NCBI RefSeq assembly: GCF_020144665.1
Contig: NZ_JAAHBQ010000015.1
Coordinates: forward strand, 1 to 64,000
Origin: Oscillatoria salina IIICB1
GTDB lineage: Bacteria > Cyanobacteriota > Cyanobacteriia > Cyanobacteriales > SIO1D9
Direction: 5' to 3'
Length of the DNA: 64,000 nucleotides
A program made the translations under genes and the position numbers. The stretch's first letter is position 1. Each line of letters starts with the position of its first letter. Of the stretch, positions 55,870 to 58,716 are shown in pieces. The notes beneath the pieces are model-generated. The model had not been told where the DNA came from. It searched no databases and saw nothing but the letters and a program-made list of their open reading frames with translations.

Positions 55870-56178
55870 ATGTCTGAACAAAGAAAAATAACAATTGTTA
55901 GTTCAGTTATTTTACTAATCATTAAAGTAACATATGGTATCCACGTTGGTTGCTTTGTTGGTGCGGCTGCGGGAGCGTGCATCGGAATGGTAGAAGGTGG
56001 ATTTTCTTACTTAATGAGTTTTTCTGAAAGCACCGAGTACGGGTCAGCAATACCGCTACTTTCAGATACTATATTTACTTTTGTCGGTGGTAGCTTTTTG
56101 AGTCCGGCTAATACAATTACGGGTTTTTTTGGCGGAATGTTTAGTGGTGCTGGAGTTGGTGCTTGGGGGGTATTTTAA
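55870..56178 (+). CDS. Gly-rich membrane protein, N-terminal part (frame 1 of overlapping pair)
   Basis: The 102-residue frame has several Gly-rich hydrophobic segments (HVGCFVGAAAGACIGMVEGG, FFGGMFSGAGVGAWG). It ends at a TAA just after a six-G run at 56165-56170. The next frame overlaps it by 16 bases in the -1 register and continues a similar Gly-rich membrane pattern. Either this is the first part of a split or frameshifted gene of about 319 residues, or the two are separate coupled genes. Family unknown. Confidence 0.55.
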   Translation: MSEQRKITIVSSVILLIIKVTYGIHVGCFVGAAAGACIGMVEGGFSYLMSFSESTEYGSAIPLLSDTIFTFVGGSFLSPANTITGFFGGMFSGAGVGAWGVF

Positions 56179-56828
56179 CTAGCTTACTTTTAGGTATTTT
56201 TCGATTACTAGAAGCTTTAAATTTGGAAAAATTTAAAGTGGCAATATCTGTTTTTAACGGTATTTTTGGTGGTCGAATAGGTGCTGTACTACTAGGAACA
56301 TTAACCAGTAGTATTACAGGATTTGTAGTGCGGTATATTGCCAAAAATAATCCTAATGAATCCATTACTATATTCGGATTTTTGGGGTTAAGAGGTGGTC
56401 TTTATGTGGGAATTGCAATCGGGCTATGTTTTGCAATTTATGGATACAACAAATCCTCTATTAATTTATCCTTGAAGAAAGTAGAAAAACTGAGAGAAAA
56501 GGCATTAGCTATTTTGCTAGCAGCTTTATTATTGATAACCCTGTTTGAATTTTGGGGAATAATTTTGATGATAGTGCTATTTTCTCTCTTGAATTACGGT
56601 CCAGAAAATAGCCAAGAATTCTTGAAGAAAAATGTGATCTCAAAAGCAAAAAATAAAAAATGGATACTTATTCTAAGTGGTTTGGCTGGTGCTATTGGCT
56701 TCAAAGGTTTTTTAGGTGCTATTTTCGGCGTGCTTACAGGATTAGCTATAAATCGATGGTTATTGCCACAATTACAGAATCGTCTGACTAAGGTAGAAAG
56801 CTCAGAAATTTCTTCTCATGAATATTGA
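56163..56828 (+). CDS. Gly-rich membrane protein, C-terminal part (frame 2 of overlapping pair)
   Basis: The frame encodes about 221 residues with five or six membrane segments (SVFNGIFGGRIGAVLLGTLT, GLRGGLYVGIAIGLCFAIYG, ILLAALLLITLFEFWGIILM, GLAGAIGFKGFLGAIFGVLT). If separate, it starts at the TTG at 56163, with GGAG at 56152-56155 suitably placed. It could equally be reached by a -1 slip on the six-G run. I do not recognise the family. Composition matches the preceding frame. Confidence 0.6.
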   Translation: MGGILTSLLLGIFRLLEALNLEKFKVAISVFNGIFGGRIGAVLLGTLTSSITGFVVRYIAKNNPNESITIFGFLGLRGGLYVGIAIGLCFAIYGYNKSSINLSLKKVEKLREKALAILLAALLLITLFEFWGIILMIVLFSLLNYGPENSQEFLKKNVISKAKNKKWILILSGLAGAIGFKGFLGAIFGVLTGLAINRWLLPQLQNRLTKVESSEISSHEY

Positions 56829-56991
56829 ATGTATAGCGATCAGTCATCTGAGAAAGATTGTTGTTATTATGGTTGAAAAAATAATTAAAATGTGGTAATA
56901 GTCAAAAAAGTTGCCGAACTACGCTCAACCTAATCAAACGTCTAAAAATCATTAAAAATAAAGAACTTCAATTGAGGGAGACGAAGAGCCT

Positions 56992-58716
56992 ATCGAAACT
57001 ATCTACGGAAATCTTCAGGGATTAAAGCCGAGCCAAATCAAACAACTACAAAGGCTTTATCATCAACGTATACCCGGCGATCGCATAACTACAATAGATT
57101 TGTCTGAGCGACTGGCAGCAATTAGCACAGAAATTGCTCAACCAGTTTGTGCGTATTTCAATCGCCGGGGACAAGTAATTCGAGTCGGAGTTGGTTCTCC
57201 TCGTCAAACTAGAATACCACCTCTGGAATTACCCCGTTATGGTGCAGAACGCTTGTCTGGCGTTCGCTGTATCGCGACAAAATTAAAGCCAGAAGCACCA
57301 AAAGAGTCTAGTTTAACCGCAATGGCTATCCAACGCTTAGATGCTTTAGTAATGCTTACCCTTACAGGTGGTGGTAAACAGCGTCGTGGAGGTGGTGCAA
57401 CGGGCTACGTTAAACAAGCATATCTCGCTCACCTGTTACCTCAACCGGAAATAGAACTAGAGCAAAGATTTTACTGGACTGTTTCCCCACCACTAAGTTT
57501 AGAGGCGATCGCTAAACAAGATTTTCTCGACTTAGTAGAAGGGTTAGAAGCTGAATTTCGTCGCGAGTACGTTGCTCAAGAAGTTGATGGATCTCGCGAA
57601 CGAGTGCTAGTAGTAGGTTTGATGACCGATGAAATTTCACCCCTTCAGTTTGAGAATGGTTTAGCTGAAGTAAGCAGGTTAGTTGAGACTGCGGGAGGAG
57701 AAGTTTTACAGACAATTCACCAAAAGCGATCGCGTCCTCATCCCCAAACGGTTATCGGTGCTGGTAAAGTTCAAGAAATTGCTTTGCTTGTCCAAACTCT
57801 CGGTACTAATTTGGTCGTATTCAATCGCGATCTCTCCCCAGCCCAAGTCCGCAACCTGGAAAAACAATTCGGCGTGCGTGTGGTAGACCGTACTGAGGTA
57901 ATTTTAGACATTTTTGCCCAACGCGCTCAATCTCGTGCAGGTAAATTACAAGTAGAACTTGCCCAGTTAGAGTATATGTTGCCTCGTCTCACAGGTCGAG
58001 GTGAAGCAATGTCTCGTTTGGGTGGTGGTATCGGTACCAGAGGACCTGGAGAAACTAAATTAGAAACTGAACGCCGTGCTATTCAACGTCGGATCTCGCG
58101 CTTGCAAAAAGAAGTTAACCAATTACAAGCACATCGTTCTCGTTTACGTCAGCGTCGTCAAAAACAAGAAGTTCCTAGCATCGCTATTGTTGGTTATACG
58201 AACGCGGGTAAATCTACTTTAATTAATGCCCTAACGAACGCGGAAGTTTACACCGCCGACCAACTTTTTGCTACTCTTGACCCGACTACAAGGCGTTTAC
58301 CTGTTCCCGATGCGATCGCCGGAGAACCGCTTACAATTCTACTCACGGATACTGTCGGATTTATTCACGAGTTACCACCAGCTTTAGTCGATTCTTTCCG
58401 AGCAACCCTAGAAGAAGTTACTGAAGCTGATGCACTGCTACACCTTGTAGACTTATCTCATCCCGCATGGCAAAGTCAGATTCGTTCTGTCACCAGTATT
58501 TTAGCCGAAATGCCGGAAACCCCAGGCCCTGCTTTGATTGTCTTTAATAAAATTGACTGCGTAGACAGCGAAACCTTAGCTATAGCACAAGAAGAGTTTC
58601 CTTTAGCCGTGTTTATTTCGGCAAGCGATCGCCTCGGTTTAGAAACTCTCCGTCAAAAGTTAGGTCAGCTTGTCCATTATGCTGTTGCTTCTGTTCGGCG
58701 ATCGGGTGTAGATTGA
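56992..58716 (+). CDS. hflX: GTPase HflX (start codon uncertain)
   Basis: HflX is a ribosome-associated GTPase that rescues or splits stalled ribosomes. The GTPase domain has G1 GYTNAGKSTLINAL, DTVGFIHELP and NKID; the N-terminal part has the glycine-rich RLGGGIGTRGPGETKLE. The first canonical start in frame is a TTG at 57100 (538 residues). However, the frame is open back to 56962 and encodes a family-typical N-terminus, IYGNLQGLKPSQIKQLQRLY. ATC at 56992 sits where Met is expected; ATT at 56971 is also possible. The true start is therefore unclear. Confidence 0.88.
   Translation: METIYGNLQGLKPSQIKQLQRLYHQRIPGDRITTIDLSERLAAISTEIAQPVCAYFNRRGQVIRVGVGSPRQTRIPPLELPRYGAERLSGVRCIATKLKPEAPKESSLTAMAIQRLDALVMLTLTGGGKQRRGGGATGYVKQAYLAHLLPQPEIELEQRFYWTVSPPLSLEAIAKQDFLDLVEGLEAEFRREYVAQEVDGSRERVLVVGLMTDEISPLQFENGLAEVSRLVETAGGEVLQTIHQKRSRPHPQTVIGAGKVQEIALLVQTLGTNLVVFNRDLSPAQVRNLEKQFGVRVVDRTEVILDIFAQRAQSRAGKLQVELAQLEYMLPRLTGRGEAMSRLGGGIGTRGPGETKLETERRAIQRRISRLQKEVNQLQAHRSRLRQRRQKQEVPSIAIVGYTNAGKSTLINALTNAEVYTADQLFATLDPTTRRLPVPDAIAGEPLTILLTDTVGFIHELPPALVDSFRATLEEVTEADALLHLVDLSHPAWQSQIRSVTSILAEMPETPGPALIVFNKIDCVDSETLAIAQEEFPLAVFISASDRLGLETLRQKLGQLVHYAVASVRRSGVD

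Follow-up and report, generated by a model that had tools for sequence, protein, structure and literature searches.

The hflX gene of Oscillatoria salina and its N-terminal coding region

The window analyzed here, a 64,000-nucleotide stretch of contig NZ_JAAHBQ010000015.1 from Oscillatoria salina IIICB1, carries an hflX gene whose features are collected in Table 1. The predicted product scored 472.5 bits against the curated equivalog model TIGR03156 (cutoff, 216.75), placing it within the HflX family, and GTP-bdg_N, GTP-bdg_M, and MMR_HSR1 all scored above their cutoffs; as a cyanobacterial HflX, this protein has an N-terminal extension of ∼200 residues beyond the part present in solved HflX structures. 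Just 5' of hflX are two overlapping, membrane-protein-like open reading frames in different frames (55870 to 56178, starting with ATG, and 56163 to 56828, starting with TTG), perhaps a single gene with a frameshift or else two coupled genes.

From the TAA stop onward the hflX frame reads AGA ACT TCA ATT GAG GGA GAC GAA GAG CCT, then ATC at 56992, then GAA ACT ATC TAC GGA (ETIYG), and because this stop is in frame, no in-frame hflX start can lie beyond it. Our reading of the frame agrees with the first-pass annotation that the first in-frame ATG, GTG, or TTG is the TTG at 57100 and that 46 codons are open from 56962; the ATT at 56971 and the GGGAG upstream of the ATC (56976 to 56980) that it pointed out are likewise present. 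The leader is of the type without a hairpin, GAGGGAG followed by ATC. An Rfam search over positions 56400 to 57600 returned no credible leader or riboswitch match upstream of hflX, no perfect TANAAT was found for hflX in this genome, and the consensus scan did not pick out the A-rich element at 56953 to 56959.

Table 1. Features of the hflX locus (positions in the window)
Feature	Position	Strand	Basis
ATC, predicted hflX start codon (non-AUG; of the class that IF3 discriminates against)	56992..56994	+	Conserved ATC/ATA/ATT; strong positional conservation; ATG in paralogues
Predicted 574-aa coding sequence of hflX, with its TGA stop codon at 58714	56992..58716	+	TIGR03156, PF13167, PF16360, PF01926
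Conserved N-terminal segment ETIYGNLQGLKPSQIKQLQRLYHQRIPGDRITTID, 5' of the first ATG/GTG/TTG	56995..57099	+	Codon-position periodicity; 77% mean amino acid match
CCT adjoining ATC; T at -1 and C at -2/-3 as conserved start context	56989..56991	+	Cluster-weighted base frequencies
Purine-rich GAGGGAG, likely Shine-Dalgarno sequence; GGAG ends 11 nt before ATC	56974..56980	+	Sequence
A-rich TAAAAAT, possible degenerate -10 element (weak), ∼39 nt before ATC	56953..56959	+	Position only
In-frame TAA stop, 10 codons 5' of ATC	56959..56961	+	Sequence
TTG, earliest canonical start triplet of the frame; rejected as the start codon	57100..57102	+	Phe in relatives

We compared the window with 243 homologous loci codon by codon. 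For codons +2 to +36, the 35 that begin at 56995, agreement is 78, 92, and 42% at first, second, and third positions and the amino acid match is 77%, much as for the codons following TTG 57100 (78, 91, and 37%; 74% amino acids); the 12 codons before the ATC match at 31, 39, and 39%, with 11% of amino acids. By this comparison, conservation of HflX clearly begins at ATC 56992 and the segment from 56995 to 57099 is clearly coding. Phe is aligned with TTG 57100 in 225 of 246 loci, with TTG itself in 6, and the triplet is thus a chance Leu codon; given the Phe in relatives and the coding segment upstream, it was ruled out as a start. ATT 56971 was also ruled out, as it lies 5' of the purine tract in a nonconserved segment.

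Conservation of the codon at the ATC position

We compared 236 distinct hflX loci, mostly cyanobacterial, which were fetched with queries starting one residue after the ATC (the one exception was a query beginning with M there), with one batch taken from a phylum scan with an NTN pattern. At the position of ATC 56992, 216 of the 236 carry ATC (153), ATA (60), or ATT (3), collectively ATH, and one carries ATG, in a paralogue-type copy; weighted by cluster, the counts are 80 ATC, 12 ATA, and 2.5 ATT of 94.5. Among 386 genomes of the phylum scanned with a pattern allowing NTN, and thus NTG, the 81 genuine hflX hits had TA (40), TC (39), or TT (2) as the last two bases of this codon, and none had TG. 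Usage here differs from that of Ile codons within the same genes, where ATT is the commonest (1086, with 732 ATC and 171 ATA), indicating that this is not an ordinary Ile codon; the chi-square comparison of the two treats as independent loci that are related to one another. The first-pass annotation had expected relatives to have Met at 56992 and saw the missing ATG as a peculiarity of one genome; relatives in fact carry ATC or ATA, which is the rule for cyanobacterial hflX, and with 216 of 236 loci agreeing, the ATC reflects neither a mutation private to this genome nor a fault of assembly.

AUC is found in most cyanobacterial lineages and AUA mainly in heterocyst-formers and a few others; A-to-I editing of AUA was ruled out as an explanation, since it leaves the AUC majority unexplained. 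In 146 of the 216 ATH loci an in-frame stop, sometimes one codon away, precedes the ATH with no canonical codon between them, leaving the conserved N terminus without a canonical start that could be used in frame. The gene thus combines this with a codon outside AUG, GUG, and UUG that is conserved among its orthologues, which places hflX in the class of genes with a conserved non-AUG start; to our knowledge, few bacterial genes belong to it. The first canonical start downstream lies at a median of codon 40, and gene finders restricted to ATG, GTG, and TTG are expected to misplace the hflX start accordingly.

Loci without an ATH codon usually have a canonical or near-cognate codon nearby (GTG in L188 and L214, TTG in L203, CTG in L236, and ATG in L241). 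On a tree of 116 loci we counted at least 12 switches between ATH and canonical starts and at least 27 changes among all start states, counts that are rough because the tree was built quickly and many of its branches are weak; ATC, ATA, and ATT interchange repeatedly on it, and ATG in the main hflX copy is rare. Divergent families within the class retain ATC or ATA (L249, L252 to L256, and L258 to L262), and several lineages have shifted to canonical starts (L244 to L246, L248, L257, and L263 to L265). Outside the class, L330 has ATC after AGGAGG, L329/L266 has ATT after GAGGAGG, L331/L267 has an ambiguous start, and L332 and L333 have ATG. To judge from the ATC of L330, with its strong Shine-Dalgarno sequence, and the ATT of L329/L266, the AUH start of hflX may predate the photosynthetic class. 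Group f39, which we guess to be the marine picocyanobacteria, has another HflX N terminus.

In three genomes a further copy of hflX has ATG either at the ATC position (L325 and L326) or one codon later (L327), which argues that the codon at this place is the start codon; these copies and L027, also with ATG, form one well supported clade. Such diverged copies (L325 in G010, L326 in G019, L327 in G020, and L027 in G025) stand beside the AUC-start copy in some genomes, and the ATG-start copy is possibly an unthrottled one. Long-N HflX of Fusobacterium, the only useful outgroup from a search of plasmids, starts with ATG, and a search of viral contigs recovered no homologues. One of the searches used an approximate, partly composed long-N HflX query, of which only the hits' own DNA entered the analysis.

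Start context, promoter, and leader hairpin

The start lies in a conserved context, (G)CCU-AUC/A-GA, with cluster-weighted frequencies of 0.81 for T at -1, 0.60 for C at -2, 0.64 for C at -3, 0.54 for G at -4, and 0.96 for G at +4, although the +4 G and the bases after it are also constrained by the protein sequence. For comparison, ATG starts of the window's genome have T at -1 in 15 of 39 cases, and A predominates at their -3 and -4 positions. Work on chloroplast petA is said to have found that U at -1, pairing with A37 of the initiator tRNA, helps weak start codons.

A TANAAT -10 hexamer is present between -56 and -24 in 100 of 143 clusters (∼10 in shuffled sequences), with peaks near -51 and -36; in most lineages the box is 30 to 55 nt from the start. 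From these positions and the usual spacing, the 5' end of the hflX transcript is expected ∼24 to 40 nt before the start, a short leader that makes an upstream start or programmed frameshift unlikely. A canonical codon stands in frame upstream at 70 of the 216 ATH loci, often at codon -2, where its frequency is that expected by chance (∼12%, worked out from column frequencies); some lineages with such a codon may use it. In heterocyst-formers (L033, L036, L039, and others) ACG, a near-cognate start triplet, is nearly fixed at codon -2 (ACG CCT ATA).

A hairpin was identified in 112 of 209 leaders, against 9% of shuffled sequences and 8 to 22 loci when the search was shifted to other places, and it ends 7 to 12 nt, mostly 10, before the start codon. 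Leaders come in two lengths: where the -10 box is distant, 31 of 49 clusters have a strong stem ending 7 to 12 nt before the start, versus 2 of 40 where it is near. RNAalifold found no pairs on a MAFFT alignment of the hairpin leaders, in which the loops are out of register, and we therefore tested the hairpin by swapping arms: in long leaders a locus's own arms pair in 63% of cases versus 19% for arms swapped between species. The stems differ in sequence with pairing kept (GGCCAG/CTGGTC, GGCCAC/GTGGCT, GACCAA/TTGGTC, GATCAA/TTGATC, and GGATCGG/CCGATCC), and at the level of sequence comparison the long-leader hairpin is shown to covary. About half of the hairpins have a Shine-Dalgarno-like word beside the 5' arm, and looping out the hairpin would leave it an effective spacing of 9 to 10 nt; among leaders without a hairpin, 67 of 97 have such a word between -22 and -5. 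In phage T4 genes, hairpins bring the Shine-Dalgarno sequence close to the start codon, and the long hflX leaders resemble these in having a purine-rich Shine-Dalgarno word abutting the hairpin, which, looped out, would put that word ∼9 to 10 nt from the start. The hflX hairpins are predicted, occur in only some cyanobacterial leaders, and, in contrast to T4, accompany an AUC or AUA start.

Two further leader features were observed. In one locus (L254, in G207) the -10 region upstream of the ATC start is overlapped by a perfect hairpin of 16 bp, TACTCAGTATAATTGT/ACAATTATACTGAGTA, and in one family group (L150, L152, L176, L199 to L201, and L222) the leaders, which lack the CCAG-type hairpin, have in common a word like GTAGC/TTGCGTTTGGC 15 to 25 nt before the ATC.

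Models of initiation and of control by IF3

The assignment of ATC 56992 as the hflX start site is well supported by these comparative data, and three other readings of the N terminus fare poorly against it. The reading in which mutation or sequencing error removed the start and TTG 57100 gives a shorter HflX draws on that TTG being the first canonical triplet in frame, but we give this next to no credence when 216 of 236 loci have an ATH codon, likewise non-ATG, at the site, the segment ahead of the TTG is coding, and relatives have Phe in its place; of the two alternatives in the first-pass annotation, the non-AUG start at ATC 56992 therefore stands, conserved phylum-wide, and the short protein from the TTG does not. 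It is very unlikely that translation begins at a canonical triplet upstream, in this or another frame, with a programmed frameshift bringing it into the HflX frame: an open triplet of this kind exists in at least one of the three frames at 149 of 209 loci, and the CCT-ATC context is conserved, but 60 of the 209 have none in any frame, the sole such triplet in the window is a TTG in the +1 frame, 20 nt upstream, the -10 boxes set the transcript start close to the gene, and the paralogues simply carry ATG at the site. The remaining reading, that lineages with NNG CCT ATH in fact start at codon -2, making Pro-Ile residues 2 and 3, is improbable as well, if less so; codon -2 is ATG at 18, GTG at 15, and ACG (mostly in heterocyst-formers) at 62 of the 216 loci, yet it is otherwise unconserved, being TAA, TAG, or TGA at 10 loci, and ATG, GTG, and TTG occur there near the chance rate. 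The -1 triplet is CCT, CTT, or TCT and varies little within CCN, as a Pro codon would not, and the ATH codon is conserved whatever stands at -2.

Initiation with fMet at AUC 56992 would yield a 574-residue HflX. The fMet-tRNA would pair with the A and U of AUC or AUA, leaving the third base mismatched, and U at -1 with A37 and G at +4 with U33 would extend the pairing of the initiator tRNA and aid initiation. AUU, AUC, and AUA are the start triplets against which IF3 discriminates, unlike AUG, GUG, and UUG (PMC4611024), and because AUC and AUA belong to this set, translation of hflX would be throttled by IF3-dependent rejection of its start codon. IF3 keeps free 30S subunits apart, and HflX of E. 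coli splits ribosomes, stalled ones under stress (PMC9067457). Translation of hflX could then rise once IF3 control of the 30S subunit weakens, for example, with stalled ribosomes or an imbalance between subunits and IF3, and synthesis of HflX would thereby be tied to the condition of the ribosome pool; the IF3:30S argument can accommodate positive or negative feedback on hflX, the sign not being readable from sequence. We consider it highly probable overall that hflX has an fMet start at AUC 56992, and that this start is a standing feature of cyanobacteria, through which, as we infer, IF3 would throttle and so regulate hflX.

A serious, if somewhat doubtful, alternative is that the non-AUG start is real but is a fixed weak start, keeping HflX constitutively low with no regulation by IF3 or the state of the ribosomes. 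Such a start would lower expression without any sensing, and conservation alone is no proof of regulation. However, AUG with a poor Shine-Dalgarno sequence, or GUG or UUG, would also give weak expression, whereas codons with a 3' G are avoided here over a very deep divergence, yet ATG occurs in the paralogues, and AUC and AUA are specifically of the IF3-discriminated class (PMC4611024). Retention of a weak hflX start across cyanobacteria suggests a deliberate control on the amount of HflX. The fullest form of IF3 control is evenly poised in our view: a phylum-wide start-codon switch made of AUC or AUA, U at -1, and a Shine-Dalgarno sequence or a hairpin-positioned one in a 24- to 40-nt leader, kept non-AUG by selection, through which HflX synthesis would sense IF3 and the ribosome pool.

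Several known systems resemble parts of this arrangement. The pcnB gene of E. coli has an AUU start that limits its expression; it shares the AUH start with hflX and is an unrelated gene, and we know of no phylum-wide conservation of its start. Through their start codons, IF3 represses infC (AUU in E. coli and ATC in Streptomyces) and sigR (GTC) (PMC5472188). The infC autoregulation is like hflX in its conserved AUH start, its ribosome-cycle factor, and its IF3-discriminated triplet, but hflX is a different gene with a leader hairpin, and its regulation by IF3 is proposed by analogy. The sigR gene of Streptomyces (GTC, rarely GTT) likewise is a stress gene with a conserved rare start from which canonical triplets are excluded; its GUC or GUU is conserved within one genus, whereas AUC and AUA in hflX extend across a phylum (PMC5472188). 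Other hflX genes are also under posttranscriptional or leader control, in Bacillales with the uORFC-6-1 leader (PMC8632094) and in Listeria by rli80 attenuation of hflXr (PMC9067457), but there by a leader peptide or attenuator, in contrast to the start codon itself and very short leader of cyanobacterial hflX. Conserved non-AUG starts are already known as a kind; a literature search of partial coverage turned up no description of hflX with a non-AUG start, nor of conservation to this phylum-wide depth. Nearly all sampled cyanobacteria, and some nonphotosynthetic relatives, keep AUC or AUA on the gene of a ribosome-splitting factor, which makes control of HflX by IF3 or the state of the ribosomes through the start codon testable, with the ATG-start paralogues as natural controls.

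In the cyanobacteria examined, a canonical start is generally available for infC (GTG in the window's genome), and the IF3-type start codon thus sits on hflX instead. Genes with the IF3 N-terminal domain number two in the window's genome (on G000:C45 and G000:C12) and in about a quarter of the other sampled genomes, and the second such gene could bear on start-codon discrimination.
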